Shown: positions 1 through 20,493, counted from the stretch's first letter. The stretch: DNA of 20,493 nucleotides from a virus (IMGVR_UViG_3300028883_000153:1-20493), one strand, 5' to 3'. Notes: generated from the letters alone by a model not told the origin. Translations and numbers: made by a program.

Positions 1-144
1 TACTGGAATTACCGAGTAGTGCGAAAGAAAGTCATAGTGCTGGGTAAAGAGTGCTTTTATTATGGCGTCCATGAAATATATTACAAAAACGGAAAGCCAA
101 CATCTATCACCGCCGAACCAGTCAATCTTGGTTATTGGGAGTAG
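1..144 (+). CDS. 3' end of a small phage protein of unknown function
   Basis: Frame 1 is open from the first base of the window to a TAG at 142-144, giving the last 47 residues of a protein whose start lies upstream. The fragment begins YWNYRVVRKK and contains YYGVHEIYY and KNGKPTSIT; it is rich in Tyr, Val and Lys. From memory of phage genomes this resembles a short, widespread phage protein family of unknown role, in which a WNYRV motif is followed by a YYGIHEVYY-type motif and then GKP. The match is by pattern only. It overlaps the possible TTG start of the next gene by about ten bases, which suggests translational coupling in a run of small genes. No function is claimed. Confidence 0.6.
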   Translation, partial: YWNYRVVRKKVIVLGKECFYYGVHEIYYKNGKPTSITAEPVNLGYWE

Positions 145-416
145 ATCAGATTAGCGCTGAACATATAAATGATCTCCAGGCTGCAATCCAGGAGATCCAA
201 GAGTTTTCATTACCGCGCGATACCCTGATCCAGTGTGAATATTGCGAATCTTGGGGAGTAGTTGGCTTTAATTGCCCTCAATGCGGAGCTCCCATAGATC
301 CAACCAGATCCAAGCGGATTGTAAGAAGGGAAAGCCCGCGCGATACGTTTTATGCATTGCATGGATCTACCGGCGGGTTTAGGCCTAGTATAGGGTTGGC
401 AGAGGAAATGGAATGA
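135..416 (+). CDS. Small zinc-ribbon protein, function unknown
   Basis: A 93-residue protein with a helical N-terminus (about residues 8-24, rich in Glu, Gln, Ile and Leu) and a Cys4 zinc ribbon: C34-x2-C37, then C47-x2-C50, the second knuckle being CPQCGAPI. Such ribbons bind one zinc ion and usually mediate protein or nucleic acid contacts; the partner here is unknown. The start is uncertain. The only usual start codon in the frame is TTG at 135, without a good Shine-Dalgarno site, and it overlaps the preceding gene. The stop overlaps the next gene's ATG (ATGA at 413-416), so the pair is probably translationally coupled. It is one of four small zinc-ribbon proteins in this window. Confidence 0.65.
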   Translation: MGVDQISAEHINDLQAAIQEIQEFSLPRDTLIQCEYCESWGVVGFNCPQCGAPIDPTRSKRIVRRESPRDTFYALHGSTGGFRPSIGLAEEME

Positions 417-649
417 GCGAAAAAGAAGCGCTGGAAAAGGTTTGGAATCTGCAGCCTGGCGAATTTAAAACGGTGATTATAAAAACGTATGCAGTCCGAT
501 GTTTTGAGTGTGGCCGGCATAAGACCGTAAACAGCGCCAGATCTGCGGTTGATGCGCATGGTAAATTAAGGGAGGCCGGCTGGATATTGAGGATCTTTGA
601 TGGCTGGATCTGCGATCAATGCCTGCAAAAGGAAAAGGAGAGTAAATAA
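413..649 (+). CDS. Small Cys4 zinc-binding protein, function unknown
   Basis: A 78-residue protein with two widely spaced CxxC pairs, C30-C33 (CFECG) and C67-C70 (CDQC), separated by a 33-residue helical stretch ending in GW and DGW. This is the arrangement of small phage treble-clef or ribbon proteins in which a first CxxC is followed by a helix, a GW motif and a second CxxC near the C-terminus. The start is the ATG of an ATGA overlap with the preceding gene, and the next gene begins one base after its TAA, so it belongs to the same operon. I recognise the general pattern but not a named family. A DNA or RNA binding role would be a guess. Confidence 0.7.
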   Translation: MSEKEALEKVWNLQPGEFKTVIIKTYAVRCFECGRHKTVNSARSAVDAHGKLREAGWILRIFDGWICDQCLQKEKESK

Positions 650-650
650 G

Positions 651-1274
651 ATGAAAGGCGTGTTAGGAATCAAGAAAGATAAATCCGGATATGTCTACTA
701 TTTCAATGGCCGAGAAATATACCCCAGGTATATAAATAAAGTTAGGCTGGATGGCGCTGATTTTATTCCATGGGTAAAGGAAATTCATTTGGAGATTGGG
801 GATAATATAACTTACAGCAAGCGCATTGTAAAAACTGAAGCATTAATGATTACTATACGTAAAATGAACATAAACCTATCAGAGCATGCCCAAAGCAACG
901 ATATGCTGGCCAGTATTGATGCCGAGATACATGAAGATTTGCCCGAATATTTTATAAAAATCAATGATAATGCCAATATTATTAAAGGCGTAAACCGGTT
1001 ATTAATCCCCGTTGATGGTTATGATGGATCTCTTTATACCGTTTTACATTTCTATAAATTCCCAGACAATAAACCCAGGACCGCGGGCCATTTCCTCATT
1101 ATTCCAAAAACCCAGCTTTCAGCATTATTGGATTATCGGGCAGGTGATCAGGTTGTAGCCAGATGGGATGGTAAAAAATGGGTTGATGCATTACGCCAAA
1201 AGGTTATAGTTAATTATTATTCAGAGATACCAGGCTGCTTTAATACCGGATTTTCGATAGGAAGGGCAAAATGA
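651..1274 (+). CDS. Hypothetical phage protein
   Basis: A 207-residue protein not recognised as a known family. I place the start at the ATG at 651, preceded by AAAGGAGAG at about 630-638, rather than further upstream at 597, which would run deep into the previous gene. It has many Lys, Ile, Asn and Tyr residues and alternating polar and hydrophobic stretches that suggest mainly beta structure (for example residues 140-160, around IPVDGYDGSLYTVLHFYKF). There is a single Cys near the C-terminus, and no signal peptide or membrane segment. Its stop overlaps the next ATG (ATGA at 1271-1274). GATC sites are sparse in it (two seen), so it may differ in composition from its neighbours. Confidence 0.6.
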   Translation: MKGVLGIKKDKSGYVYYFNGREIYPRYINKVRLDGADFIPWVKEIHLEIGDNITYSKRIVKTEALMITIRKMNINLSEHAQSNDMLASIDAEIHEDLPEYFIKINDNANIIKGVNRLLIPVDGYDGSLYTVLHFYKFPDNKPRTAGHFLIIPKTQLSALLDYRAGDQVVARWDGKKWVDALRQKVIVNYYSEIPGCFNTGFSIGRAK

Positions 1275-1498
1275 AGCACGCTAAAACCGTTTCCGAAAGC
1301 ATGTATATCCTGGAGCTGGTTACTCTCCTGGTAAAGAAGGGCTGGAAATTGATCATAGAAAAAGACAAACACTATGATGATCGATTTCTGGTTACTGCAG
1401 TAAAAGCAGGAGATATATTAACGCTACACGATGTCAAAGAACAGCAGATTGAGGAATCTATCAGGACCATTGCAGAAAAGATCCTTGAATCTGAATAA
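1271..1498 (+). CDS. Small hypothetical phage protein
   Basis: A 75-residue protein starting at the ATG of an ATGA overlap with the previous gene. It has the look of a small alpha/beta domain: an N-terminal helix (residues 7-23, SESMYILELVTLLVKK), a strand (GWKLIIEKD), a second strand with FLVTAVKAGD, and a C-terminal helix ending LESE. There are no Cys residues and no motif I can tie to a family. It is the last gene before the control region at 1499-1606, so it most likely closes the upstream operon. The function is unknown. Confidence 0.6.
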   Translation: MKHAKTVSESMYILELVTLLVKKGWKLIIEKDKHYDDRFLVTAVKAGDILTLHDVKEQQIEESIRTIAEKILESE

Positions 1499-1502
1499 AT
1501 GA

Positions 1503-1531
1503 TTGCATTATAGAAATGCCTATGCTATAAT
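1503..1531 (+). promoter_or_regulatory. Candidate extended -10 promoter for the packaging/structural operon
   Basis: TATAAT at 1526-1531 is preceded by TG one base upstream (TGCTATAAT), a consensus extended -10. A partial -35 element, TTGCAT, lies at 1503-1508 with a 17-base spacer. It sits in the largest gap upstream of the packaging genes, right after a finished operon, so it is well placed to start the terminase transcript. The whole arrangement, including the flanking bases (GATTGC, 14 bases, TATGCTATA), recurs at 6775-6805. The sigma factor is unknown; the -35 match is only moderate. Confidence 0.5.
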
Positions 1532-1570
1532 AATCTTGCTTCTCCTTATCGAGCACGTAGGTTCTTCACA

Positions 1571-1601
1571 GCAAATGCCCTTATTGTATAAGGGCATTTG
1601 C
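1571..1601 (+). promoter_or_regulatory. Perfect 14-bp hairpin in the leader of the ParB-domain gene
   Basis: Positions 1571-1584 and 1588-1601 are exact reverse complements (arm GCAAATGCCCTTAT), leaving a 3-base TGT loop. No T-run follows, so this is a poor intrinsic terminator. It ends five bases before the ATG at 1607 and fills the place where a Shine-Dalgarno site would be; none is visible. A role in controlling translation of the next gene, or in transcript processing, fits better than termination, but neither is shown. Confidence 0.6.
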
Positions 1602-1606
1602 ACATT

Positions 1607-2158
1607 ATGAAAAAACTAATATCAAAGCTGGGTATAGAGTGGGAAGATAATATTATATGGATGCGGGTGGGGGATCTCATAAACTGGATTAAAAACCCAA
1701 GGAAACTGACAAATTACCAGGTAGACCAGATCAAGAAATCCATAGAGCGTTTTGGGGTCGTTGAGCCACTAATTGTAAATAGGGATAATGTTATTATTGG
1801 AGGACACGCCAGGCGGGAAATCATTGGGATGCTTGTGGGCTATGATCCCGATTTCAAGGTACCGGTACGAAAACCAGTTAAGCAAATCAAAGAAAAGGAT
1901 CTGGCAGAGCTGAACATCAGGCTTAATAAAAATACCGGTGGTTGGGATTATGATATTATGGCCAATAACTTTGAAATGGAGGATCTAACGGATTGGGGTT
2001 TCTCCGAGGATGAGTTAACCGGCCTTGATTTCGATGATTTCCAGGCTGGGGAGGATGAAGAATCAAACGAGGATGAAGATACCCAGGATGAGCATAGATC
2101 TCCCAAAATGATTACTTGCCCCAAATGCGGGCACGTTTTCAGACAAGATGATGAGTAA
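1607..2158 (+). CDS. ParB N-terminal-domain (ParB/Srx-like) protein with C-terminal zinc knuckle
   Basis: A 183-residue protein. Residues about 20-95 form a ParB-type N-terminal domain: NPRKLTNYQVDQIKKSI, FGVVEPLIV, then the signature GGHARREI at about residues 63-70. Next come the segment LNIRLNKNTGGWD and a DWGFSEDEL motif common in phage members, an acidic low-complexity linker, and a single CPKCGHVF half-ribbon near the end. ParB/Srx domains bind nucleotides and sometimes DNA; in phages they are often fused to, or next to, DNA methyltransferases. No methyltransferase is in this window. It lies directly upstream of the terminase genes. The ATG at 1607 is chosen because it begins the conserved region; it has no clear ribosome site and follows a strong hairpin. 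Confidence 0.75.
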   Translation: MKKLISKLGIEWEDNIIWMRVGDLINWIKNPRKLTNYQVDQIKKSIERFGVVEPLIVNRDNVIIGGHARREIIGMLVGYDPDFKVPVRKPVKQIKEKDLAELNIRLNKNTGGWDYDIMANNFEMEDLTDWGFSEDELTGLDFDDFQAGEDEESNEDEDTQDEHRSPKMITCPKCGHVFRQDDE

Positions 2159-2200
2159 ATGCTAATTACTTTAATAAGTTGATACTATTAGGCATATTTT

Positions 2201-2575
2201 ATGGCAAGAACAGACAGATATAACGCCCAGCAGGTAGCCGATGCCCTTATAGATAATTACGGGTTTATCTATAAGACCGCTAAACAGTTAAGATGTTCTG
2301 CCCAAACTATTTATAACTATATAAATAAGTATAAGGTTTGCAAAGAGGCCAAGGAAACTGCTGACGGGTACCTAGATGATCTGACGGAATCCAAATTAAT
2401 GAAACTGATTGAAAAGGGAGATCATTGGGCGATTGGTTTGCGTTTGGCCAGATCAAAGCGGGGCTACCAGGTAAACAAAAAGGAATCATCCCAAACAGAG
2501 GTAGAGCTAGAAAATACAGGAGAAGTTAAACGGATCATCATAAAATCTGAAAAGCCTATTGAAGATGCCGAATGA
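2201..2575 (+). CDS. terS: Small terminase subunit (putative)
   Basis: A 124-residue protein with an N-terminal helix-turn-helix: residues 9-20 (QQVADALIDNYG), then YKTAKQLRCSAQTIYNYI, where the AQTIYNYI segment looks like the recognition helix. A second helical region (DDLTESKLMKLIEKGDHWAIGLRL) matches the oligomerisation region of small terminases, and the SKRGYQ segment is typical of the phage family with this order. The small subunit recognises the packaging site and delivers DNA to the large subunit, whose gene starts inside the last codons of this one. The C-terminus is charged and probably disordered. The ribosome site is weak. The identification rests on pattern and on position immediately before the large subunit. 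Confidence 0.8.
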   Translation: MARTDRYNAQQVADALIDNYGFIYKTAKQLRCSAQTIYNYINKYKVCKEAKETADGYLDDLTESKLMKLIEKGDHWAIGLRLARSKRGYQVNKKESSQTEVELENTGEVKRIIIKSEKPIEDAE

Positions 2576-3992
2576 AATCGAATTTGAATTACCCATTACG
2601 AGTGAAAAGAGCCTGGATTTGTTTTTATGGCATGGGCTTAATATCAGGATGCCTGATAAGCAGATCTGCCCCAATCATACTACCCCATGGCACTTTTTTA
2701 CTGATGCTTTCTTTTTTCGCTCTCCTGTTCTGGTTGTTAAAGGGTCCAGGGGGCTTGCTGGAAAAACATTTACACTTGGATGCTTGGGATTCTGCCTTTC
2801 TGTATTATGGCAGGCCAGTGTTACCATTATGGGGGGATCTGGCCGGCAAACAAAGATCGTGCATGATTACATTAAATCATTCTGGGATAGGCGGGCTATA
2901 CCAAACTCTCTCCTGGCCTCGGATCCTACCATGCAAAGAACAACACTGGTTACAGGCAATTATATTGAGGCGCTGCATGGATCCGAGAAAAGCGCAAGGG
3001 GCATGCATCCAAATGTTCTCCTCATTGATGAGGTTGATGAAATGAGCTTAAGAGTATTTGAAGCATCCCTGGGGCAGCCCATGGGTAGTAAAAATGCCCT
3101 GGGATATATACCGGCCATGACCGTTATTGCAAGCACGCATCAGCATCCAGACGGGACCATGACAGAAATATTGAGGCGGGCCAATAAAAAGGGCTGGCCT
3201 ATTTATGAATGGTGCTATAAAGAAACCCTGGAGCCCCATGGATGGTTAAAGCCCGAGGAGGTCCAAGCCAAGCGGGAAATGATGACAGAGGCGAGCTTTA
3301 ACGTTGAAATTGAAATGCAGGAGCCCTCCCCAGAAAATAGAGCTATTGATTTTGATGCAGTAATTTCCATGTTCGATGAAAGCCTAGGGGTATTTGAGGG
3401 GGCAGATAATGAATTATGCGAGATCTCCCCATTTGTAAATGATAAGGAAAGGGCTGAATATCAGACATATTTAAAGGATTGCAAGGCCAGGCGCATAGAT
3501 CCTCATTGGTGCCTACCCCGTTTCCGATTTGTAACCGGTGGGGATTGGGCAAAATCCCAGGATAAAACTGTAATCATTACCATTAGAACAGATTGTAAAC
3601 CAATGCGGGTTGTGGCTTATATACGAGTAAACCGTAGGCCATGGCCCCAGATGGTAGCCTTGCTGGATGAAAGGAATCGGAAATATAAGGGATCAGTAAG
3701 TAATCACGATGAAACGGGGATTCAGTCATTGATTGGGGATTACCTGCATACAGCAAGTAATGGGATCCAGATGATAGGCAGGCAGCGCCAGGATATGATC
3801 TATAATGCTGTTGGGCATATTGAGGATCGATCGATCATTTCTCCTGATATTGAATATTTTAAATCAGAATTGAAATACGTTAGGACTAAAGATATTGAGC
3901 GCGGAGGATCCGGCCACTTGCCGGATAGCCTGGCTGCATTAAGCCTGGCCCTTGTTGGAGTAGGTAGGGAATTTGGTGGAATATTTGTATAA
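2565..3992 (+). CDS. terL: Large terminase subunit (ATPase and nuclease)
   Basis: A 475-residue DNA-packaging motor protein. With the ATG at 2565 as start, the Walker A-like loop is GSRGLAGKT (residues 60-68), followed by an adenine-side region GGSGRQTK (90-97) and Walker B LLIDEVDE (152-159). A coupling motif IASTHQ comes next. The C-terminal RNase H-like nuclease has its first acidic residue at D327 (GGDWAKSQD), a middle NHDETG segment, and a last acidic residue at D454 (PDSLAALSLAL). The length is close to the usual 450-550. The gene overlaps the small subunit gene by 11 bases. ATP hydrolysis drives DNA into the prohead through the portal; the nuclease cuts the concatemer. All key motifs appear intact. 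Confidence 0.92.
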   Translation: MPNEIEFELPITSEKSLDLFLWHGLNIRMPDKQICPNHTTPWHFFTDAFFFRSPVLVVKGSRGLAGKTFTLGCLGFCLSVLWQASVTIMGGSGRQTKIVHDYIKSFWDRRAIPNSLLASDPTMQRTTLVTGNYIEALHGSEKSARGMHPNVLLIDEVDEMSLRVFEASLGQPMGSKNALGYIPAMTVIASTHQHPDGTMTEILRRANKKGWPIYEWCYKETLEPHGWLKPEEVQAKREMMTEASFNVEIEMQEPSPENRAIDFDAVISMFDESLGVFEGADNELCEISPFVNDKERAEYQTYLKDCKARRIDPHWCLPRFRFVTGGDWAKSQDKTVIITIRTDCKPMRVVAYIRVNRRPWPQMVALLDERNRKYKGSVSNHDETGIQSLIGDYLHTASNGIQMIGRQRQDMIYNAVGHIEDRSIISPDIEYFKSELKYVRTKDIERGGSGHLPDSLAALSLALVGVGREFGGIFV

Positions 3993-4020
3993 AAGCATAT
4001 AAGGAGGATGGAGAATAGAA

Positions 4021-5394
4021 ATGAAACTAATTGATAGATTGAAACTGGCATTTTCAAGTAAAGAGGATCTAACGCGCCTAATGAGATCTAGTATTACCGG
4101 CGCTGGATCTGGGAGCCCTGCTTATAGCAGAATCCGATATGAAACCATGGCCAAAGAAGGTTACAGGAAAAACGAATTGATCCATGCTTGCATCCAGAAA
4201 ACAGCAAATACCTCCTCCCAGGTGCGATTAAAGGTATATTCTGACAAGAATGAAGAATTGCCCGATCATCCCCTGGCAAAGCTGATAAAGCAACCAAATC
4301 CACTTATGGGAGAATTTGATTTCTGGAGTAGTGTGATTATATTTCTTAACCTGGCTGGATCTGCAGCGTATGAGGTGGTCAGATCCAGGGCTGGTATACC
4401 AGTCCAGTTGTGGCCATTGCGCCCAGATTGGTTGAAACCCATCAGCACTGATACCGCTTACATTGATCACTATGAATATAAGGTACCCATGCATGACGCT
4501 ATCAAGCTGGATACCAGGGATGTATTGCGATTTACTGATTTTGATCCCATAAACTTTTTCCTCCAGGGCTATCCCCGCATCGCTGTTGCTGCCCGAGTTG
4601 GGGATATTGATAACAGCGCCACTGACTTTATTAAAATGTTCTGGGAAAAGGGCGGGGTACCCATGGGGATCCTAAAATCAGAGGTTAAGATCAATGAGGA
4701 TGATGTTGTAAGGATCCGCAAACGTTGGGCGCAAAGGTACGGAGGATTCCAGAACTGGTTTTCTCCTGCTGTTTTGGATACAGCTACCAGCTACCAGCGA
4801 ATTGGCCTTACCTTTGATGAAATGGGGTTTGAAAAGCTGGATGCCAGGAATGAGGTGAAGATTTGCGAGATCTTTGATATACCGGCCATTATTGTAGGCG
4901 CAAAGATCGGGCTGGATCGATCGACCTATTCCAATTACAAAGAAGCGCGGGAAGCCTGGTGGCAAGATAGCTTAAAGCCGATGTATGAAAAGATAGATGA
5001 TGTTATTACTAATGCATTGCTACCAGAGTTTACCGGAGTAAAGCTGGCATGGGACTTTTCCAAGGTGCCTGCCCTCAAAGAGGAAACCGATAAAGTATAT
5101 GAACGCGCAAACGGGGCTATGGCTACCGGTGCCATTACAGTAAATGAGTACCGCGCTATGATTAACCTGCCCCCAGTAAAAAACGGGGATGTTCGTTATA
5201 TATCGGTTGCCAGTGTTGAGATCCCTACTGAAACCCCGAAAAAATCCATGGAGCGCAAGACCATTGAAGAAGAAGAATTTGCAGATGATCACCTGGTAAG
5301 CGAAAAAAAGTTTATGAAAAAGCTGGAGCCTTATTTTAAAGAGCAAATGAAAAGGATCTTGGATGAAGTACGAAAAGAAACTGGGGTTGAGTGA
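4021..5394 (+). CDS. Portal protein, HK97 family
   Basis: A 457-residue protein matching the HK97-type portal pattern. After a short N-terminus comes YRKNELIHACIQKTANTSSQ, the region where these portals have a helix contacting the capsid. Then follow HPLAKLIKQPNPLMGEFDFW, AYEVVRSRAGIPVQLWPLRPD, an LRFTDFDP segment, and the central PAIIVGAKIGLDRSTYSNYKEA stretch typical of the stem and clip region. The C-terminal 60 residues are strongly charged and helical. The portal forms the dodecameric ring at one capsid vertex through which DNA enters and leaves. The start is firm, with an AAGGAGG ribosome site at about 4000-4007. The 3' end overlaps the head morphogenesis gene by 32 bases. Confidence 0.92.
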   Translation: MKLIDRLKLAFSSKEDLTRLMRSSITGAGSGSPAYSRIRYETMAKEGYRKNELIHACIQKTANTSSQVRLKVYSDKNEELPDHPLAKLIKQPNPLMGEFDFWSSVIIFLNLAGSAAYEVVRSRAGIPVQLWPLRPDWLKPISTDTAYIDHYEYKVPMHDAIKLDTRDVLRFTDFDPINFFLQGYPRIAVAARVGDIDNSATDFIKMFWEKGGVPMGILKSEVKINEDDVVRIRKRWAQRYGGFQNWFSPAVLDTATSYQRIGLTFDEMGFEKLDARNEVKICEIFDIPAIIVGAKIGLDRSTYSNYKEAREAWWQDSLKPMYEKIDDVITNALLPEFTGVKLAWDFSKVPALKEETDKVYERANGAMATGAITVNEYRAMINLPPVKNGDVRYISVASVEIPTETPKKSMERKTIEEEEFADDHLVSEKKFMKKLEPYFKEQMKRILDEVRKETGVE

Positions 5395-5989
5395 TGCATT
5401 TTGGACTAACGAATTTGAACTACTATTTCGCATAGTATTTCCAATCATACTAGAATTTACCCTGGAATCTGCTGATGAAGCCATAAAGAATCTTGGAATC
5501 CTGGAGGGCGGGGTTAGCTGGGATCTCATCAATGATGCTGCTGTTCAATGGGTCCAGCATTATTATTTCGATCTGGTAAAGGATATAACAGAAAGCTCCA
5601 GGAACTTTATAAAAGAGCAAATGGTTGAATGGTTGCAATCTGGCGAGCCATTGAAGGACCTGGAAAAACGCCTGCAGACTAGGGGCATGTTTGGCAGGGT
5701 CCGCGCCCAGATGATAGCAGCAACCGAAACTACCAGGGCATACGCCAGGGGCAATTACATTGCATGGAAGGAAAGCGGGATTGTAAAAGGTAAGAAATGG
5801 GCTACTGCCAGAGATGATAAAGTTTGCCCAATATGCCTGCCATTGCATGGCATGGAAATTGGACTGGATCAGGATTTCAATGCGAAAAATGAGGATGGGG
5901 AAGTAATCTATACTGGTTTCTATCCTCCAGCCCATGTTAATTGCCGGTGTGGAATCAGGCCGGTACTAAAGGAATCTAGCAATGAGTGA
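5363..5989 (+). CDS. Head morphogenesis / minor head protein (Mu gpF, SPP1 gp7 type)
   Basis: A 208-residue protein with the C-terminal signature of the Mu F family: a helical LEKRLQTRGMFGRVRAQMIAATETTRAYARGN segment (residues about 94-125), WATARDDKVCPICLPLHG, and the closing YPPAHVNCRCGIRPV. The Cys-x2-Cys and the final Cys-x-Cys probably bind zinc. Such proteins are present in few copies at the portal vertex and are needed for infectious heads. At 208 residues it is a short form; many family members have a longer N-terminal region. The start at 5363 lies inside the portal gene, about eight bases after AAAGG, and implies coupled translation. The stop overlaps the next gene by eight bases. 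Confidence 0.85.
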   Translation: MKYEKKLGLSDAFWTNEFELLFRIVFPIILEFTLESADEAIKNLGILEGGVSWDLINDAAVQWVQHYYFDLVKDITESSRNFIKEQMVEWLQSGEPLKDLEKRLQTRGMFGRVRAQMIAATETTRAYARGNYIAWKESGIVKGKKWATARDDKVCPICLPLHGMEIGLDQDFNAKNEDGEVIYTGFYPPAHVNCRCGIRPVLKESSNE

Positions 5990-6395
5990 AACGGTAAAAG
6001 GATTGAATAAAGCATTGCGCAAGATCCAGCGTTTATCTGATGGTCCTAAATTGATCAAGAATGCTGCTGATGAAAGCATTTTATTTCTGCAATCCCAGAT
6101 CCCAGATTACCCCCCCCAAAGACCTACTACCTACCGGCGAACTAATCTCCTGGGTAATTCACTGACAAGCGCTAGGGGAGCGAATCAAGGATTATCCAGG
6201 GTTGAGGGAATTGGTAAATCAATCCGCATGATCATTGGGACTGCTGTAAATTATGCAAAATATGTGATTGATGAAAAAGAACAAGCATGGATGCATAAGG
6301 GGCATTGGTGGACCATCCAGCCGGTGATTAGGGAAAAGCTGGGAGGGGTATTAAATATATTTCAGAAGAAATATGATGAGGCAATGAAAAAATGA
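5982..6395 (+). CDS. Minor head/tail joining protein, HK97 gp10-like (putative)
   Basis: A 137-residue basic protein. An N-terminal helical region (GLNKALRKIQRLSDGPKL) is followed by DYPPQRPTTYRRTNLLGNSLTS, then a beta-rich IRMIIGTAVNYAKYVIDEKEQAWMHKGHWW stretch and a C-terminal helix. The order arginine-threonine-leucine strand, IGT-x-VNYAKYV, then a tryptophan-rich loop and final helix is the pattern of HK97 gp10-like or tail-completion proteins. In many phages this gene lies after the connector; here it lies between the head morphogenesis gene and the protease, which is less common. It overlaps both neighbours (start in the previous gene, stop in the next), so it is clearly in the same operon. 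Confidence 0.6.
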   Translation: MSETVKGLNKALRKIQRLSDGPKLIKNAADESILFLQSQIPDYPPQRPTTYRRTNLLGNSLTSARGANQGLSRVEGIGKSIRMIIGTAVNYAKYVIDEKEQAWMHKGHWWTIQPVIREKLGGVLNIFQKKYDEAMKK

Positions 6396-6604
6396 TGAGT
6401 ACAGATCCAGATGCAAGCCCTGGCTATTGCGAATATATCCAGGATCCGCTTAATAAGATAACAACCATCTTTTGTGAATGTGGGCGTAAATTCAAGGTTG
6501 AGGGTATGGCTGGGGCAAGTATATTCTGCCCCAAATGTGGTAAACCCCATTACATAACCCTCTATATAGAGGTTGACGAGGAGGAAAAGGAAAATGAACG
6601 ATAA
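6392..6604 (+). CDS. Small zinc-ribbon protein, function unknown
   Basis: A 70-residue protein with C28-x-C30 (CECGRKF) and C46-x2-C49 (CPKCGKPH), a rubredoxin-like or zinc-ribbon knuckle pair, and a very acidic C-terminal tail. Two adjacent ATG codons (6392 and 6395) could start it. The first overlaps the stop of the previous gene. The last codons overlap the start of the Com-like gene, whose ribosome site GAGGAGG lies inside this gene. Nucleic acid or protein binding is plausible from the fold alone. I do not know a named family. Confidence 0.7.
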   Translation: MMSTDPDASPGYCEYIQDPLNKITTIFCECGRKFKVEGMAGASIFCPKCGKPHYITLYIEVDEEEKENER

Positions 6605-6867: not shown

Positions 6868-6885
6868 CTGCTCTTGGTGTTTTTT
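6852..6885 (+). terminator. Intrinsic (Rho-independent) terminator before the protease gene
   Basis: An 11-bp stem (6852-6862 with 6869-6879, one G-T pair; core CCAAGAGCA and TGCTCTTGG) with a 6-base loop CCTAAC is followed at once by six T (6880-6885). This is a textbook intrinsic terminator. It lies between the portal-side genes and the protease/capsid genes, so it would either end a transcript or lower downstream expression unless antitermination acts. The TAA of the 53-aa gene is in the loop. Confidence 0.85.
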
Positions 6886-6899
6886 AATTGGGAGAGATC

Positions 6900-7949
6900 A
6901 TGCAGAGAAAAGTTTGCTTTTCAGAAGTTAAAGAGATCGAAGGCAGGACCGTTTCAGGTATTGCCTCGGTATTTGGAAATATTGATGGGGGCAGTGATCG
7001 CATTATGCAGGGGGCATACAAAAAGACCATCCAGGAGAGCATGGATCGTGTAAAGCATTTATGGGGTCATAATTGGTATGATCCCCCTATTGCAGCGATA
7101 AAAGAATTGCGCGAAGTTGGGCGGGATGAACTGCCCGAAAAGACCAGATCCAAATATCCTGATGCTACCGGCGGGTTGCTGGTTGTAAGAGAATATCTGG
7201 AAACGCCAAGAGGTAATGAAGTGCTGGCCGGTATTAGGGCTGGTGCTATTTCTCAAATGTCAATAGGCTATGAATCTGTTAAGTATGATTATGAGGAGGT
7301 GCAAACAGAAGAAAATGGAAAAATCAAGGTCCGCAATTTAAGAGAGCTCCGATTGTGGGATACCAGCGATGTTGTTTGGGGAATGAATGAAGCGACAAGC
7401 GCAAGTAAAACCGCGGTGCCATTTACGGATCGCGGTACCGGATCCAAGGATGCAGAATGGAAAGCGCCTGGCCTGGTAGATTTCACTACTACCCCATGGG
7501 ATCAATTAGATCCCCAGGAAAAAAGCCGGATCATTGATCACTTTGCCTATAAAGGCGGTGGTAATGCATTTGAGGATCTTAAATTTCCTCATCATGCCTG
7601 GGGTGAAAGAGGCGTTGGAAAGGCAAGCTGGATGGCTGTGAGATCTGCCATGCAGGACCTTTTCGGGGATTGTGGGATAGGTATGAAGGAGGCCGAGGAA
7701 GTTTATTTACACCTGGCCGAACACTTTAAGCAATTCAATGAGCCTGTACCTCCCTTTGAGCTGGTAAAGCTCTCTATAGTATCAAATGAGGTCCTAACAT
7801 TAAAGGATCTTACTATCAATGGATTACAAGATCTAGCAAATGAGCTGAAAACTCATGCAGCCAAGCCGATTGCAGCCAAGCGATCACTTACTGATCAGTT
7901 GAAACTTAAGCTAGAAATCCAAAAAAGACAATATGAGGTAATGAAATGA
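6900..7949 (+). CDS. Prohead protease, HK97 (S78) family, with C-terminal extra domain
   Basis: A 349-residue protein from ATG 6900, behind GGGAGAG. Residues 1-170 match the S78 prohead protease: FSEVKEIEGRTVSGIASVFGN, LWGHNW with the likely catalytic His (H57), ISQMSIGYE with the likely nucleophile S121, and LRELRLWD with E149. It cleaves scaffold and capsid N-termini inside the prohead. Residues about 190-285 carry a further domain with FEDLKFPHH, GVGKASWMAVRSAMQDLFG and AEEVYLHLAEHFKQFNEPVPPFE, a module I recognise as recurring in phage proteases and other head proteins. The last 60 residues are basic and helical, possibly scaffold-like. There is no separate scaffold gene. It overlaps the capsid gene by ATGA. 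Confidence 0.9.
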   Translation: MQRKVCFSEVKEIEGRTVSGIASVFGNIDGGSDRIMQGAYKKTIQESMDRVKHLWGHNWYDPPIAAIKELREVGRDELPEKTRSKYPDATGGLLVVREYLETPRGNEVLAGIRAGAISQMSIGYESVKYDYEEVQTEENGKIKVRNLRELRLWDTSDVVWGMNEATSASKTAVPFTDRGTGSKDAEWKAPGLVDFTTTPWDQLDPQEKSRIIDHFAYKGGGNAFEDLKFPHHAWGERGVGKASWMAVRSAMQDLFGDCGIGMKEAEEVYLHLAEHFKQFNEPVPPFELVKLSIVSNEVLTLKDLTINGLQDLANELKTHAAKPIAAKRSLTDQLKLKLEIQKRQYEVMK

Positions 7950-9331
7950 ATAAGAATGATTTAATAGCCCGCTATCAGAAATGCCTTTCTGATGCCGAGG
8001 CTATCATGGCAGCATTTGAGGGCAAGGAAATGCCCAAGGAAAAGGCAGATGAGGTTAATACCCTGCTTGGGCAATCGGATCAATTAAAGATCCAGCTTGA
8101 TAACATTGAGCGCCTTGCTGCAGGTCGTGAATTTCTGGAAGATCCAAACCAATCAAAAGCAAGCATGAGCTGGCGGCCTGCCGGCCCATCCGAGGGCGAG
8201 GAAGAAGTTGACGAAAAAGCCTGGCGCGAGGTTGAAATTAAGACTTTCGCGGTAGATCCGCTTGGGATGATTGTGCCCAAAACCAATACTCTCCGCTTTA
8301 ATATTCCAATGCGCGTTAACAAAAAGGAATATGCCCCCGCATTTGAAAGCTATATGCGCAAGGGTTTCCATGATATGGGGCCGAATGATCGCAAGACACT
8401 TGCCGAGGGTACGGATAGCGCGGGCGGTTTCCTGGTGCCCGCCGATTACCAGGAAGAATTACTTAAGAAAATCGCTACTGCTGCAGTTGTACGCCAGTAT
8501 GCGCGGGTCCAAATGACCTCCCGAGATCGCGCCCAATATCCATTCGTTAATTACAATACCGATGATAAATATACGAGTGGGGCGCGTGTTACCTGGTCAG
8601 ATGAAAACCCATCCTCAACCTCCCATCGTGTTACCGATCCTGTTTATGGGCTTTTCACCATCCCCATCAATACAGCCCTGGCCTCCATCCCAATTTCATT
8701 GAACTTGATCGAGGATAGTGTATTTGATGTTGAGGGTCATTCCTTGGAGCTGTTTGCCGAGGCCTTTGCATTGGGTGAGGAAAATGCTTTCTGGCAGGGT
8801 ACCGGAGCAGGGCAGCCAAGAGGTATCCTGACCTCATGCGCAGGATCATCTGGGGATGCTGATTTCATTGAAACCGGAACCACCCAGGCTACCGCGCAAA
8901 CCATTATTGCTGATGAAATCGTAGATATGGCCTATGCATTACCTGATCAATATGCCATGAACGCAAAATGGTTTATGAATAAAGCCACTGAAAAATATAT
9001 CCGCAAGCTCACCTCAACCGGTGGGGAATACTTGTGGCCGATCATCAACCAGGTTGGTAATCTTGGGGCGGTGCCTCGGATGCTCCTGGAATATCCTGTT
9101 GCAAGATCTGAATTTCTGCAGGATTCTACCGGCGCAGCCAATACCTACCCGATCATCTTTGGGGATCTGAAAGGGTACTTGGTACTTGATCGCGTTGGTT
9201 TCTCGGTGCAACGTTTGGCCGAGAAATATGCCGAAGAAAATCTGGTTGTGTTGCTTGGGCGCAAGCGTGTTGGTGGGCAGGTCGTTGAGCCTTACCGTAT
9301 GCGCTGCTATAAAGCCCTGGCTAGCACGTAG
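7946..9331 (+). CDS. Major capsid protein, HK97 fold
   Basis: A 461-residue protein, a somewhat long HK97-type major capsid protein. Residues 1-65 are strongly helical (ARYQKCLSDAEAIMAAFEGK and NTLLGQSDQLKIQLDNIERL), the delta/scaffold domain usually removed by the protease. The mature part includes DSAGGFLVPADYQEELLKK (GG at residues 160-161), the N-arm to E-loop transition typical of the fold. Then come ARVQMTSRDRAQYP, LNLIEDSVFDVEGHSLELFAEAFALGEENAFWQGTGAGQPRGIL (the conserved helix and GTG-x-QP-x-GIL motif) and a C-terminal FGDLKGYLVLDRVGFSVQRL (P-domain/E-F region). It self-assembles into the icosahedral shell. The gene starts within the end of the protease gene. A GC-rich hairpin follows at 9361. 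Confidence 0.95.
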   Translation: MNKNDLIARYQKCLSDAEAIMAAFEGKEMPKEKADEVNTLLGQSDQLKIQLDNIERLAAGREFLEDPNQSKASMSWRPAGPSEGEEEVDEKAWREVEIKTFAVDPLGMIVPKTNTLRFNIPMRVNKKEYAPAFESYMRKGFHDMGPNDRKTLAEGTDSAGGFLVPADYQEELLKKIATAAVVRQYARVQMTSRDRAQYPFVNYNTDDKYTSGARVTWSDENPSSTSHRVTDPVYGLFTIPINTALASIPISLNLIEDSVFDVEGHSLELFAEAFALGEENAFWQGTGAGQPRGILTSCAGSSGDADFIETGTTQATAQTIIADEIVDMAYALPDQYAMNAKWFMNKATEKYIRKLTSTGGEYLWPIINQVGNLGAVPRMLLEYPVARSEFLQDSTGAANTYPIIFGDLKGYLVLDRVGFSVQRLAEKYAEENLVVLLGRKRVGGQVVEPYRMRCYKALAST

Positions 9332-10999: not shown

Positions 11000-11014
11000 G
11001 AAAAAGGAAATATT

Positions 11015-12069: not shown

Positions 12070-12077
12070 GAGGAACG

Positions 12078-12209: not shown

Positions 12210-12214
12210 GGTAA

Positions 12215-13198: not shown

Positions 13199-13218
13199 AC
13201 AAATAAAAAGGAGGAAGA

Positions 13219-13545
13219 ATGAACGCAAAAGAAAAAAAAGTAAGATTGGTGGTAAGGCCACCTGATGCGGATAGCCCAGGATTCTTGAGATTGATGAAAA
13301 GCGGGCTGGAATTGCGGGAGGGTGTGCGCAAAATGCAGGAGGATAAGATCAGTGATCCTGCATTGATCGATCAAATGATTAATTTTATGCTCCCTTACAT
13401 TGCCGAGCCAAAAGACAGAGAAAGGGCTTATGATCTCTTACTGGATGCATCCGAAAATGAAATCAATACTGTAATGGATGCTATTGTAGGATCTGACGAG
13501 GAAAACCCTACCGAAAGCGCCTCCAAAGAAGGAGGGGCACATTAA
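13219..13545 (+). CDS. Tail assembly chaperone (gpG-like)
   Basis: A 108-residue protein behind AAGGAGG. It is mostly helical and charged (LMKSGLELREGVRKMQEDK, IDQMINFMLPYIAEPKDRERAYDLLLDASENEINTVMDAIVG) and ends in an acidic, Ser/Glu-rich tail. Size, helical content and place between major tail and tape measure genes are those of gpG-type chaperones, which coat the tape measure protein and deliver tube subunits. The gene is followed in the -1 frame by a second open stretch that reaches the tape measure ATG, as in the lambda G-GT arrangement. Confidence 0.8.
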   Translation: MNAKEKKVRLVVRPPDADSPGFLRLMKSGLELREGVRKMQEDKISDPALIDQMINFMLPYIAEPKDRERAYDLLLDASENEINTVMDAIVGSDEENPTESASKEGGAH

Positions 13546-13715
13546 ATAAATATTACAAAGGCGGTGAGGTCCATTTGGAGGCCGATGAGCTTGCTGTAAT
13601 AATAGGCATGAAATTCGGGATCCCCCCCTGGCAGGTTTATGAGCAATTAACGCAGCGCTGGTTTCTGCAGATCATGGAGATCCTAAATGCAGAGGGCCGC
13701 GCAAAAGGTAACTAA
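13497..13715 (+). CDS. gpT-like extension, probably made by -1 frameshift from the chaperone gene
   Basis: The -1 frame relative to the gpG-like gene is open from 13497 (after TGA 13494-13496) to TAA 13713-13715, overlapping the tape measure ATG as TAATG. The region beyond the gpG-like stop encodes LEADELAVIIGMKFGIPPWQVYEQL, then TQRWFLQIMEILNAEGRAKGN, a helical pattern typical of gpT-like tails. No good start codon exists except TTG 13575, so a fused gpGT product by frameshift within 13497-13545 is the likely source. No canonical X-XXY-YYZ slip site is seen there; weak candidates are GAA-AAC at 13501 and the purine-rich stretch 13525-13536. The coordinates give the open frame, not a defined protein start. 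Confidence 0.65.
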   Translation, partial: RGKPYRKRLQRRRGTLNKYYKGGEVHLEADELAVIIGMKFGIPPWQVYEQLTQRWFLQIMEILNAEGRAKGN

Positions 13716-15163
13716 TGGGCAAAGACCGCAGTATATTAGAGATCATCGTTGAGGGTAAAGATAACGCCTCAAAAAAAATTAGTGGTGTAACCGGTACCCT
13801 AAAAAAATTGGGGGCTGGTGCCCTTAAAGCCACTACTGCAGTAATTGGGGTTGCCACTGCCCTAGGTGGAATGGCTGTAAAATTGGGCGGTGAAGCTGCC
13901 CAGGTTGAGCGCTTGCAAGGCACCTTTGATGCCCTCAATGAATCCATTAATGAAAATGCAGATGTAACCATGCAAAAGCTGATCACTGCTACAGATGGCA
14001 TGGTTTCAAAACAAACACTGCTGGCCAGTACAAATAAACTGATCTCTATGGGGCTTGCTGATACAGGGGATAAGGCTGCAGAATTAACGGAAATGGCGGT
14101 TACTCTTGCATCTGCCATGGGCGAGGATGCGGCAAGCGGATTGGAAAACTTTGCGCTAATGCTGGCCAATCAATCCATCCCCAGGCTGGATACATTTGGG
14201 ATCTCCAGTGGAAAAGTACGGGATCGCATCAATGAGCTTATGGAGGCTGATAAAAACCTTACCAGGGAGCAGGCCTTTATGACTGCAGTAATGGAGCAGG
14301 GCGAGATTGCCATGGGTAAGGTAGGTGATCAAACCGGCGGGACTGCAGCAGAAATGGCCAGATTCCAAGCATCTTTGGATAATTTCAGGGTATCCATTGG
14401 CAATGCGCTTATACCGGTACTCAATACCCTCATGGAACTAGCAAAACCCCTCCTGGAGGCATTATTACCCCTGGTGGAAGAATTGTTTGCCCCCCTAGCC
14501 CAGCTCTTGATTGATGCTTTAATGCCTATATTAACTGCATTGATTCCGGTATTTATAGAACTTATTAATGCCATTATGCCTCTTATAGAAGTGGTATTAC
14601 CCCCGCTTATTGCTGTTATTGGTTTCCTCGCTAATATTATCAGCTCCATATTAATACCGGTTATAAGCGCGGTTGCTGGCTGGTTTGCAGAGAAGATCCC
14701 CCAGGCGGTGCAATTCCTTATTGATATTTGGGAGCAGTATTTATACCCTGCTGTTGAAAAATTACGAACATTTTTCCAGATGATAGCCGAGGGCATAGAA
14801 GTTTTATATGCATGGTTTCAAAAGCTGGCCATTCGAGTACAGCAAACCATGAATAAGATTACAAGTGCATTTAATAAGGCTAAAAAGGCATTGAGTTTTA
14901 TGACAAAACAAAGCCCTGTACCATTGGCCGAGGGTATCAAAGAATCAACCCGAGCACTGGAGAAATTTGGTAATACCTATTCCAGGATCATTGGTCAGGG
15001 AGTAGGCGCAATGAGCTTGGAGGCTGTTGGATCCGGTGGGGCTGGTGGAAAATTTATAACAGTGCATCTGGATTATAGGCCGGTCCTATCCATCGGGGAT
15101 GAGTATGAACTCAAAAACGCATTGCGCAATGTTGTAAATGATATAAATAGGGAGGCTTCATAA
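13715..15163 (+). CDS. Tail tape measure protein
   Basis: A 482-residue protein. The N-terminus (ILEIIVEGKDNASKKISGVTGTLKKLGAGALKATTAVIGVATALGG) is the classic opening of tape measure proteins. Residues about 65-225 are helical (VERLQGTFDALNESI, AAELTEMAVTLASAMGE). Residues about 232-323 are very hydrophobic with repeated Leu/Ile/Pro (IPVLNTLMELAKPLLEALLPL and following), probably the segment that can span membrane on DNA ejection. The C-terminus has KKALSFMTKQSPVPLAEG and a Gly-rich loop. Tail length scales with this protein; 482 residues is short for a siphophage and predicts a tail well under 100 nm. The start overlaps the chaperone frame by TAATG. Confidence 0.88.
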   Translation: MGKDRSILEIIVEGKDNASKKISGVTGTLKKLGAGALKATTAVIGVATALGGMAVKLGGEAAQVERLQGTFDALNESINENADVTMQKLITATDGMVSKQTLLASTNKLISMGLADTGDKAAELTEMAVTLASAMGEDAASGLENFALMLANQSIPRLDTFGISSGKVRDRINELMEADKNLTREQAFMTAVMEQGEIAMGKVGDQTGGTAAEMARFQASLDNFRVSIGNALIPVLNTLMELAKPLLEALLPLVEELFAPLAQLLIDALMPILTALIPVFIELINAIMPLIEVVLPPLIAVIGFLANIISSILIPVISAVAGWFAEKIPQAVQFLIDIWEQYLYPAVEKLRTFFQMIAEGIEVLYAWFQKLAIRVQQTMNKITSAFNKAKKALSFMTKQSPVPLAEGIKESTRALEKFGNTYSRIIGQGVGAMSLEAVGSGGAGGKFITVHLDYRPVLSIGDEYELKNALRNVVNDINREAS

Positions 15164-15164
15164 T

Positions 15165-16682: not shown

Positions 16683-16694
16683 GAGTTAATAATT

Positions 16695-17300
16695 ATGGGA
16701 TATACCAAAATTACTGATATAGATGTAGAGGATCCAGCAACATCAACATGGGCCAATAATATAAAGGATAATATCGAGCATATTGCTGATACAAGATATT
16801 TACCCCTGCCAATGGGCGCGGTCCTATTTCCTCTATCTGGGATTGAGCCGGCTACCATGGAGCAGGTGGAAAGCAGCGCGGCCGGCAATAAACCAAACAG
16901 ACTGCATTTTAAATTTGATTCCTCAACGGATCAGGGGGTCATGTGGGATACTTTATTGCCCAGGGATTATGGGGTAAATCCGATATTAAATATCTTATTT
17001 TATTGTGATTCTACCGGATCCTCTAGGGTTGCTGTATTTGATGCCCAGGTATCCGCTATCAGTGATGGCGATTCCAGCATCAATGCAGAGGCCTTTGATT
17101 CTGCTAATTCTGCAAATTTATCTGTACCAGATGAAAGCTATGTTGAGGAACTTGGGCAGATTACTTTAACTAACTTTGATAGCGGGGCTGCCTTGGATGA
17201 GATTTGCATATTGCTTTATAGGGATGCCGATAATGGCAGTGATGATGCCGGCTCCATTTATGTAAGGAAAGCCTGGATAAGCTATGAGTACAGTACATAG
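16695..17300 (+). CDS. Minor tail / adhesion-type protein with beta-sandwich domain
   Basis: A 201-residue protein with TAGGAG before ATG 16695. A short helical N-terminus (ATSTWANNIKDNIEHIAD) is followed by a beta-rich C-terminal domain (from residue about 68): LHFKFDSSTDQGVMWDTLLPRDY, LFYCDSTGSSRVAVFDAQVSAISDGD, LLYRDADNGSDDAGSIYVRKAWISYEY. This domain recurs in the protein encoded at 18055-19020 (FDSST, MPDDYNGG, VYVQRDPADGSDDLAVDAKLEAVRLRY) and is a common phage tail module. It probably builds a tail-tip or fibre structure. Its partner and ligand are unknown. Confidence 0.65.
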   Translation: MGYTKITDIDVEDPATSTWANNIKDNIEHIADTRYLPLPMGAVLFPLSGIEPATMEQVESSAAGNKPNRLHFKFDSSTDQGVMWDTLLPRDYGVNPILNILFYCDSTGSSRVAVFDAQVSAISDGDSSINAEAFDSANSANLSVPDESYVEELGQITLTNFDSGAALDEICILLYRDADNGSDDAGSIYVRKAWISYEYST

Positions 17301-17308
17301 GATAAGTA

Positions 17309-18055
17309 ATGGCAATTAAGATAGATACCGGCTTAATAGATTTTGGTAATCCATCCGGCATAGATGGGATCTCCCAGCTATCCATTGTAACCTGGCTGGA
17401 GTTTACCGGTGCGCCTAGTGGGTATGTTTTCTCAAAAATGGATTATACATCAGCGCCAGATCCAGCCCCATTGCCCCATGGATGGTATATTTTGGGTAAT
17501 ACCGATGAAACTATAAACTTTTTATATGGTTGGTGGAACGCTACAGGCTGGTGGAGATCTAGCACTGGGACTATCCAAGCGAATAATTTATACCAAGTAG
17601 GCATTTCCTATGATAATTCCTCAACCGCTAATGATGCAACCATTTATATTAATGGATCTAGCGTTGCTGTTACCGAAGAACAGGGACCAGGCGCAGATTT
17701 ACGGGATGATACCGGAGTTAATTTTCTAGTGGGAGGATGGCATAATAACGGAACGCCAACCCAGGGGAGCTGTAATTGTATTATTTACGATATAAAGATC
17801 TATTCTGGCATACGAACAGCAGCAGAATTTAAGCGCGATTATGATAGGCGCTGCCATTTACCAATTATCGAAAGCGATCTTGAAATATGGATCCCATTTC
17901 TGGGGGCAAGTGGGTGCCAAGTATTTGATGGGGTTGCTCTCGGATCATCCAACCTAATTAGGGAATATATTACAAAAGTGTTAGGGCAGCCCTATGATAC
18001 CGGCTCCGGTGGTCCTATTGGGGCTGGTAGTAAATTACGAATAGGAGGCCAATAA
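17309..18055 (+). CDS. LamG/ConA-like lectin-fold tail protein (putative)
   Basis: A 248-residue protein. The strand pattern LSIVTWLEFTGAPSGYVFSK, YILGNTDETINFLYGWW, NLYQVGISYDNSS, ATIYINGSSVAV, NFLVGGWHNN and CIIYDIKIYSGIRTAAEFKRDYD is that of LamG or concanavalin A-like jellyroll domains, ending with the helix typical after the last strand (AEFKRDY). Such domains bind carbohydrate, and phages use them as tail-tip binding modules. The C-terminus is Gly/Ser-rich (GSGGPIGAGSKLRIGG). The ribosome site is weak. The stop overlaps the next ATG by TAATG. Confidence 0.65.
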   Translation: MAIKIDTGLIDFGNPSGIDGISQLSIVTWLEFTGAPSGYVFSKMDYTSAPDPAPLPHGWYILGNTDETINFLYGWWNATGWWRSSTGTIQANNLYQVGISYDNSSTANDATIYINGSSVAVTEEQGPGADLRDDTGVNFLVGGWHNNGTPTQGSCNCIIYDIKIYSGIRTAAEFKRDYDRRCHLPIIESDLEIWIPFLGASGCQVFDGVALGSSNLIREYITKVLGQPYDTGSGGPIGAGSKLRIGGQ

Positions 18056-19020
18056 TGGCTGATTATCCAAGTACAATGCCGAGCTGGGTTAATGTGGTTG
18101 ATGATATAGATACCGCTTATGCAGCCCACATGAATAATGCATGGGCTGAAATCATCGCTATTGCAACCGAGCTAGGATTAGATGTTGCCGAAGATTATAC
18201 AGATCTCAAAACCAGGCTAAATGCTACCCTGGGAGAGGCCGGCAATGCTGAAACGACTACAGCAACCGGAAATATTACCCTGGCTGATTCTAATGCCAAG
18301 ATCCAGTATATAAATTGCAATGGCGCTGATCGTGATGTAACCATGCCCGCCGAAGCTGCTACAAATCACGAATTTGTTATTGTAAATACAAGCGGGGCTG
18401 ATTATGTTCTGACGGTTAAGGATGATGGGGGCGGGACCTTATGCATCATTGATCAGAATGAAACTGGAGCCCTGTTCTCTAATGGATCTGCCTGGTATGC
18501 ATTGACCGGCGTAAACATTGCTGCAAATATTGATATGAACGCGGGATTTTTAAAGCCGGCGCAAACCAATCCATGTGGTGATGCAGCAGCCGAGGAATTT
18601 GGTACTAATGACGTTGACACTTATTATCTAGCCTTTGATTCCTCAACCCTGGAGGCTGCCCAGGCCTCATTTACCATGCCAGATGATTACAATGGGGGGG
18701 CTGTAATTGCCCAATTTGTTTGGGGGTCCAGCTCTACCGGTACAGTTACATGGGGTATTAAGCTATTGGGTATTGGTGATTCGGGAGCAAATGATCAGGC
18801 ATGGGGAACGCTAGTGGAGGTTTCTGATTCTGTTGATACTGCCGATGATAAGGCTATAAGCGCCTGGACTGCTGCAGTAACGCCAGGCGGGAGCCCAGCA
18901 GCAGGATCAAGGATGCATGTATATGTTCAGAGGGATCCTGCAGATGGATCAGATGATTTGGCTGTAGACGCCAAGCTGGAGGCAGTACGTTTGCGCTATA
19001 TCAGAAAGAGAGCTTTATAA
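18055..19020 (+). CDS. Tail-tip / fibre-type protein with beta-sandwich domain
   Basis: A 321-residue protein behind AGGAGG. Residues 1-65 include a helical ADYPSTMPSWVNVVDDIDTAYAAHMNNAWAEI segment that resembles the start of the 16695 gene product. The middle (about 65-175) is a beta-rich region (NITLADSNAKIQYINCNGADRDVTMPAEA, EFVIVNTSGADYVLTVKDDGGG) like phage fibre shaft or spike repeats. The C-terminal domain (from about 195: YYLAFDSSTLEAAQASFTMPDDYNGGAVIAQFVWGSSSTG) is the shared phage tail beta-sandwich. It probably forms part of the tail-tip receptor-binding apparatus. The next gene starts directly after its TAA with no spacing. Confidence 0.65.
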   Translation: MADYPSTMPSWVNVVDDIDTAYAAHMNNAWAEIIAIATELGLDVAEDYTDLKTRLNATLGEAGNAETTTATGNITLADSNAKIQYINCNGADRDVTMPAEAATNHEFVIVNTSGADYVLTVKDDGGGTLCIIDQNETGALFSNGSAWYALTGVNIAANIDMNAGFLKPAQTNPCGDAAAEEFGTNDVDTYYLAFDSSTLEAAQASFTMPDDYNGGAVIAQFVWGSSSTGTVTWGIKLLGIGDSGANDQAWGTLVEVSDSVDTADDKAISAWTAAVTPGGSPAAGSRMHVYVQRDPADGSDDLAVDAKLEAVRLRYIRKRAL

Positions 19021-19830
19021 ATGGCTGTTGATGATATTTATACTGTTTCTTTGCTTCACATGAATGGGGCTGATGGCAGCACAAGTATTACTGACGAGTC
19101 AGGAAAAACATGGACATTGAACGGAAATGCGCAGCTAGATACAGCAAAAAAGAAATTTGGGACAGCATCTTTATATTTTGATGGTTCTGGAGATTATGCT
19201 GTATCTTCAACCCATGATGATTTTGATTATGGGGCTGCTGATTGGACATGGAATTTGCAATTTGCAACAAACCGCACCACTAGAATGGATGTGATGGTTA
19301 ATGACGTTACTTGGCCAAATTCTGCTGGCCTGACATTAATTCTGAATTACAGTGGGCAGGGGAGCATCGCATTTTATGAGTTTAGCACTAATAAAATTTC
19401 AACGACAACAGATCAAGGATTTACAGACAATAATTTTCATCATTTGGAATTGGCGAGAGGATCGGATATATTCTACTTGTTTTTGGATGGATCATTAATT
19501 GGATCATCTACAGCATCGCAAAGTAACGGCGGCGGTTATCCAACCGTCTTGGGAATAAATGAAAATTTATCATCCTATCCTTATTTGGGCTGGATCGATG
19601 AGGTTAGAATATCTAAAGGCATAGCCAGGCATACATCTACATTTGAGCCACCAACAGCAGAATATGGAGCAGAAGAAGAACAGGTGATCATCTCGGGAGT
19701 TGGAATCAGCGCATCCGGTATGATCTATATGAGTTTATTGGAGAAATATGAAAAGATCTTTGGTCGGAAATATAAAAAGAAAAAGGGGTTAATACAACCT
19801 GATCTATTACCGGAGATTATACCGATATGA
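19021..19830 (+). CDS. LamG/ConA-like lectin-fold tail protein with basic C-terminus
   Basis: A 269-residue protein starting directly after the previous stop. Residues about 10-215 form a LamG-type jellyroll: LLHMNGADGSTSITDESG, GTASLYFDGSGDYAV, WTWNLQFATN, HHLELARGSDIFYLFLDGSLIGS and WIDEVRISKGIARHTSTFEPP, the last being the typical closing strand and loop. A short linker with VIISGVGISASG leads to a basic C-terminal tail (YEKIFGRKYKKKKG). It is probably a second host-surface binding protein. Its first 390 bases have no GATC site and the first 600 no CCWGG, unlike the rest of the window, which hints at recent acquisition. It overlaps the endolysin gene by ATGA. Confidence 0.7.
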   Translation: MAVDDIYTVSLLHMNGADGSTSITDESGKTWTLNGNAQLDTAKKKFGTASLYFDGSGDYAVSSTHDDFDYGAADWTWNLQFATNRTTRMDVMVNDVTWPNSAGLTLILNYSGQGSIAFYEFSTNKISTTTDQGFTDNNFHHLELARGSDIFYLFLDGSLIGSSTASQSNGGGYPTVLGINENLSSYPYLGWIDEVRISKGIARHTSTFEPPTAEYGAEEEQVIISGVGISASGMIYMSLLEKYEKIFGRKYKKKKGLIQPDLLPEIIPI

Positions 19831-20493
19831 TGAAAAATAAAGTAAATGGGATAGACGCTTCACAGCATCAAGGGATCATTAACTGGGATCAAGTGGTATC
19901 CAGTGGGATCTTGTTTGCCTTTATAAGGTCCACGTTTGGCCTATATCCTGGGGATTATGATACCCAATGGAAAAGGAATTGGGCAGAGGCTAAAAGAGTT
20001 GGGGTCATGCGGGGGGCATACCAATTTATATTATCCTATCAATCCATAACTGACCAAGCCCGCCTATTGGTAGATCGCATGGATGGAGATTTTGGAGAGC
20101 TCCCGCCGGTTTGCGATGTGGAATATTGGCGCAGGCAAGATGGAAAATATGAATCCATGCCAACAGTGCTCCAAGTTAAAAAGTGGTGCGAAACTGTTGA
20201 AATGCTTACCGGTATTACCCCAATTATTTATTCCGGTGGATATTGGAAAACCATTACAAGAAGCATGGATCCCAGGGATCTAACTTGGGCATTACGCTAT
20301 GATCATTGGCTGGCGCAATATACAGCAGAAGGATTTGAGGAGCCATGCAAACCATGGCAAACATGGGCATTTTGGCAGCATACCGAAAAGGGGGATGGTC
20401 CTGCCATTGCTGGAATCAGGGGCAATCTGGATCTTAACGTTTTTAATGGGGATCTGGATGCATTTGCAGATTATACGAATAATGTAATCATTG
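19827..20493 (+). CDS. Endolysin, GH25 lysozyme (3' end outside window)
   Basis: ATG 19827 (overlapping the previous stop, ATGA) opens a frame that runs to the window edge: 222 codons plus one base. It matches the GH25 muramidase family: GIDASQHQGIINW (residues 8-20, with D10), FAFIRSTFG, PPVCDVEYW with the catalytic Asp97 and Glu99, PIIYSGGYW, LTWALRYDHWLAQY, FWQHTEKG, and LDLNVFNGD near residue 202. GH25 enzymes cleave the MurNAc-GlcNAc bond of peptidoglycan. The domain is essentially complete at the edge; whether a wall-binding domain follows cannot be seen. There is no signal peptide, so release would need a holin, likely encoded beyond the window. Confidence 0.9.
   Translation, partial: MMKNKVNGIDASQHQGIINWDQVVSSGILFAFIRSTFGLYPGDYDTQWKRNWAEAKRVGVMRGAYQFILSYQSITDQARLLVDRMDGDFGELPPVCDVEYWRRQDGKYESMPTVLQVKKWCETVEMLTGITPIIYSGGYWKTITRSMDPRDLTWALRYDHWLAQYTAEGFEEPCKPWQTWAFWQHTEKGDGPAIAGIRGNLDLNVFNGDLDAFADYTNNVII

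Follow-up and report, generated by a model that had tools for sequence, protein, structure and literature searches.

The DNA analysed here, hereafter the window, is a virus contig of 20,493 bases that carries GATC sites at 3.0 times the number expected from its base composition (228 versus 76.0) and that has completely lost other short palindromes, among them CTNAG and CCSGG. GATC and CCWGG remain in it, at counts well beyond those that codon-aware models predict. The explanation that we tentatively prefer is that the window belongs to a tailed phage whose word usage may have been shaped by the restriction and methylation repertoire of its host, with a GATC-linked process that would enrich GATC.

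The window reads as a single structural module from a tailed phage. Its structural genes are all co-oriented (+ strand) and run from a ParB-like protein through terminases, head and tail to an endolysin. The ParB-like protein (1601..2158, 185 amino acids) adjoins the terminase genes and matches the ParB part of PHROG 498, which is annotated as a DNA methyltransferase, but it has no methyltransferase domain; its C-terminal end is a CPKCGH zinc-ribbon-like motif. The next product (2201..2575), without a family match in Pfam and PHROG scans, is a probable small terminase subunit, judged from position and a helix-turn-helix-like sequence only. It is followed by the large terminase subunit (2559..3992; phrog_9; relatives 39-46% identical), the portal protein (4021..5394; phrog_2662, 6.7e-70; relatives about 50% identical), a MuF-like head morphogenesis protein (5363..5989), the head maturation protease (6888..7949; phrog_80) and an HK97-type major capsid protein (7946..9331; PF05065, 1.2e-50). 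Tail proteins are also encoded in the module, including the tail tape measure protein (13715..15163; phrog_991). A gap of about 170 bases (13545-13715) lies between this gene and the ORF that ends at 13545; in tailed phages a frameshifted tail assembly chaperone often sits just before the tape measure gene. The last two genes encode a laminin-G-like (LamG) domain protein (19021..19830; PF13385, 1e-8) and a glycoside hydrolase 25 endolysin that reaches the end of the record (19827..20492; PF01183, 3.3e-28). The predicted endolysin points to a bacterial host. Searches with the capsid, portal (as a single sequence and as an alignment), terminase, endolysin and tail proteins found no relatives in 84,980 species genomes, and capsid, portal, terminase, endolysin and tail-protein searches found no near relatives among viral contigs; the closest that these searches came were viral contigs with portal proteins about 50% identical.

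The initial annotation, made by hand, had reported about 230 GATC and 26 GGATCC sites against expectations of about 75 and 3. A recount gives 228 and 26, and base composition predicts 76.0 and 3.6, which bears out both the counts and the expectations. The excess of AGATCT also holds, with 24 copies and not the 22 first given, and the GC content, estimated at 42%, is near that value but higher when computed (44.1%). GATC sites are spread evenly, with 6-16 per full kilobase across the available 20 kb of genome. The check proposed at the outset, a comparison with Markov and codon-shuffled models, gives expectations of 124-157, none of them reaching 228: 135.5 under a synonymous codon shuffle, 133-152 when the junction bases are kept as well, 151-157 under a second-order Markov model (observed, 1.45-1.5 times as many), and 124 under Gibbs sampling with codon usage and junction dinucleotides. 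Stronger null models shrink the excess, to 1.5-1.8 times under those that preserve codons, without removing it. Codon choice alone is therefore insufficient, as had been claimed, and the combination of codon usage and dinucleotide bias also fails as a cause under the synonymous and junction-preserving shuffles. Under the codon- and junction-preserving shuffle GATC is the strongest outlier of all 4-mers (z 12.8, the next being 7.1). GGATCC likewise exceeds the 11-17 copies produced by codon-aware shuffles.

The Burge-Karlin ratio, for which the restriction-site field uses an over-representation cut-off of 1.23 (PMC4687349), is only 1.08 for GATC and 1.14 for CCWGG, so that neither excess is flagged by that criterion. 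This is a fair warning but not a refutation of the GATC excess, because the sub-words GANC and GNTC on which the ratio depends are mostly GATC itself. Among the 16 GNNC words, only GATC (2.46), GCGC (1.87) and GTAC (1.87) are above first-order expectation, and the remaining 13 are found at 0.56-0.81 of it.

GATC sites occur in different codon frames (90, 52 and 82, plus 4 intergenic), in agreement with the initial annotation, and in all frames the synonymous codons that complete a GATC are used more often than they are in other contexts. For instance, the ratio of Ile ATC to the other Ile codons is 82:57 after G and 88:264 elsewhere (p 3e-12), that of Leu CTN to TTR is 29:6 after GAT and 40:45 after other NNT codons (p 4.5e-4), and that of Arg CGN to AGR is 14:5 after GAT and 11:28 otherwise (p 1.7e-3). 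Gly codons placed before TC are GGA in 33 of 43 cases. The Ser preference (TCN:AGY, 52:1) is partly confounded by the depletion of GAAG/CTTC. Following a G, a third-position C is preferred in the case of ATC, whereas most other codon boxes show no such preference. Several such context tests were tried, and the Ile result would survive any reasonable correction for multiple testing.

The absent sites constitute a complementary signal that the first reading of the sequence missed. CTNAG is not found at all, against 39.5-50.6 copies expected from codon-aware shuffles, and CCSGG is equally missing, against 24-27 in those shuffles and about 33 under a Markov model. Of the 64 palindromic hexamers, 24 are absent, versus 6-11 in simulations; GATATC, CAGCTG, AAGCTT, GAATTC, CAATTG and GTCGAC are among them. 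This complete purge of CTNAG, CCSGG and many hexamers is at odds with a generally relaxed restriction, one of the causes first put forward; restriction pressure therefore looks strong but site-specific. Some non-palindromic words are also scarce: GAAG/CTTC is depleted (72 versus about 127), and the 5-mers GAACC, ACGGC, GCCGC and CACAG are low, nearly missing. These depletions could reflect asymmetric restriction sites.

CCWGG occurs 118 times in the window, and the local density of eight sites reported for positions 4021-5000 was recovered (8 in the 4000-5000 kilobase). Other raised words are TACCGG, RCCGGY, CTGCAG and GCGC (94 copies of the last). TACCGG is present 31 times, where codon simulations give about 6-7, and the 33 copies of ACAGCA/TGCTGT compare with about 9-12 expected. 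Dinucleotides are strongly biased (AC/GT at 0.59 of expectation, AT 1.34, CC/GG 1.34, GC 1.26); GTC/GAC and CGT/ACG are among the rarest trinucleotides in the window, and the values in relatives are milder.

A panel of 99 sequences, made up of the window and of viral loci no shorter than 8 kb, almost all of them encoding a related portal or terminase, places these features among related viruses. The ratio of GATC to base-composition expectation ranges in it from 0 to about 3.2, with a median of 0.94; it is below 0.1 in 11 sequences and at least 2.5 in 8. The GATC excess is a property of the window's lineage and not of the phage family. GATC is wholly missing over 12-21 kb in L036, L037, L173, L170, L166, L169, L178, L182 and L126, and L170 and L173 lack six or seven palindromes of 4-5 bp, including ACGT, AGCT, CCGG, GATC and TCGA. 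At the other end, the contigs L083 and L085 (54-58 kb) carry GATC at 3.1-3.2 times composition, together with many other strongly biased tetramers, of which CATC, CTGC, GAGC and GGCC are depleted. At least one palindrome of 4-5 bp is wholly missing in 36 of the 99 sequences, and CTNAG and CCSGG are both missing only in the window and in L054, which also lacks CTAG and has nearly lost CATG (10 versus 84 expected). Between the GATC-rich L042 and L052 (79% identical), the best kept of the 16 tetramer classes that contain each of A, C, G and T once is GATC (64%); between L004 and L006, an ordinary pair that is 80% identical, its retention is unremarkable (47%). This conservation is suggestive only, because it is measured in other phages than that of the window. 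Since the panel extends from zero GATC to about three times expectation, comparison of close relatives can test the question once hosts and methylation are known.

Among the alternatives to the preferred explanation, a host-wide signature is possible though doubtful: the host genome itself would be GATC-rich and AC/GT-poor, and resemblance of the phage to it would suffice, with no need for phage-specific selection. The evenness of the excess along the window, the strong dinucleotide biases and the rise of TACCGG, RCCGGY, CTGCAG and GCGC fit such a signature, and methyltransferase-linked, highly iterated palindromes such as HIP1 are known in cyanobacteria (PMC4390886). However, the loci nearest to the window by background signature (L006, L013 and the Syntrophomonadaceae phage L102) have ordinary GATC ratios of 0.80-0.84, so the background signature alone does not give the excess, and the junction-preserving shuffle already takes up codon and dinucleotide bias. 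It is improbable that GATC and CCWGG are a compositional by-product, that is, the remainder left by purged palindromes and fixed codon usage, and for GATC this is already disfavoured. The low Burge-Karlin ratios agree with it, as does the CCNGG total of 118, near the second-order Markov sum for CCWGG and CCSGG (about 109). Nevertheless, simulated synonymous sequences from which all the absent words are banned contain only 125-131 GATC and 64-66 CCWGG sites. The GATC excess is not a left-over, because the ban does not raise simulated GATC; CCWGG is raised only slightly by it. Spill-over from avoided sites was thus rejected for GATC and is minor for CCWGG. Moreover, most CCWGG sites (69 and 34, versus 13 in the synonymous frame) are in frames where a switch to CCSGG alters the protein, and the codon context tests are specific to GATC. 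A very-short-patch repair at 5-methylcytosine, turning T:G mismatches back to C:G and thereby raising CCWGG and GATC, is barely credible. GATT/AATC is somewhat low (232 versus 310 under the second-order Markov model), but CTWGG/CCWAG is not depleted (CTAGG 19 versus 17.8 expected, CTTGG 61 versus 49.9), which also tells against the Dcm part of the Dam/Dcm-like methylation first suggested. Such repair cannot make the A-to-C and multi-base choices that create GATC, as in Arg AGR/CGN and Ser AGY/TCN.

A mark of the phage's own, in which an enzyme encoded outside the fragment would modify GATC and the site would be selected for self-recognition or protection, is unlikely. Methyltransferases are carried by 12 of 33 related viral records, and an N6/N4-type DNA methyltransferase is encoded by each of the GATC-rich L042, L052 and L085, in the first two of which GATC is conserved. 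However, such enzymes are also present in the GATC-poor L037, L009 and L007, and the GATC-rich L021 and L083 gave no match. The presence of these methyltransferases therefore shows no clean association with GATC excess in the relatives, and no gene in the 33 records passed the cut-off for the Dam family (PF02086). A link suggested by the B3 mycobacteriophages, in which a PAPS-reductase/ParB gene pair adjoins the terminase, failed as a common cause: Laroye and 031MP004 have the pair and are not GATC-rich. In the panel, PAPS reductase was found in 1 of 40 records, L030, which is not GATC-rich either.

According to the explanation preferred here, in which host restriction and methylation shape the word usage of the phage, the missing sites would be those that present hosts, or earlier ones, cut with their restriction enzymes, and the host would spare GATC and CCWGG or the phage would be protected at them. 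The pull towards GATC would come from a GATC-linked process, most likely methylation by a Dam-type enzyme of host or phage. GATC might then be gained because repair favours methylated sites, or because carrying the mark is selected for. CCWGG may be under a weaker form of this process or may reflect a general leaning towards words that are permitted. Against this explanation, Pfam and PHROG scans of the window's proteins detected no methyltransferase in the fragment, which is incomplete and 20 kb long. A broader proposal is that several unrelated or distant lineages (the window, L021, L083/L085, L042/L052 and the B3 phages) have independently accumulated GATC as a selected self-tag, with marked GATC benefiting the phage, for instance because a host system recognises it as self. 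This seems decidedly unlikely.

Several known systems can be compared with the window. In the mycobacteriophages of subcluster B3 (Pipefishvirus), GATC and GGATCC reach about four times expectation genome-wide, without an accepted cause (Siranosian et al. 2015, PMC4841201). We reproduced this excess in Athena, Phlyer and Daisy; Athena has 540 GATC sites in 45 kb, where composition predicts 135, and prefers GAT over GAC before C. The host on which B3 phages grow is M. smegmatis, and Dam methylation is reportedly missing from mycobacteria (PMC4841201), which, B3 being the closest published parallel, speaks against the methylation reading. The window shows the three traits of the B3 type that were tested (GATC at several times the number predicted by composition, non-local over 20 kb, and an excess of GGATCC), and in both cases the excess occurs in a tailed phage lineage with relatives that do not have it. 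However, the B3 phages are actinobacterial, high in GC and unlike the window in gene set; in them CTNAG and CCSGG are reduced but still present, and CCWGG is enriched about 1.5-fold.

With respect to restriction avoidance, GATC is below expectation in 46 of 46 phages facing the corresponding GATC enzyme (Rusinov et al. 2018, PMC6286503). As in such avoidance, certain type II-like palindromes are gone altogether from the window, CTNAG and CCSGG being far under codon-aware expectation, but those phages avoid GATC and the window has it in excess. The iterated palindromes of cyanobacteria are linked to methyltransferases, and biased repair has been proposed as their origin (Elhai 2015, PMC4390886). 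As in the window, a GATC-containing word (RCCGGY in one strain) is found there far above expectation. However, HIP1 is an 8-mer, GCGATCGC, of cellular genomes, whereas the enriched unit in the window is GATC itself; an extended palindrome of the HIP1 type (GCGATCGC) was rejected, since CGATCG is present in only 2 copies and the flanks of GATC are mixed.

The window is not the first of its kind, because the GATC and GGATCC excess has already been published for B3; it is a further case of that unexplained excess, joined to an ordinary but very complete site avoidance. Although the avoidance of sites by phages is well documented, the active build-up of a restriction palindrome still lacks an explanation. 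The window provides a second, clear case, unrelated to the B3 phages, in which one stretch of 20 kb combines the purging of CTNAG and CCSGG with the build-up of GATC.
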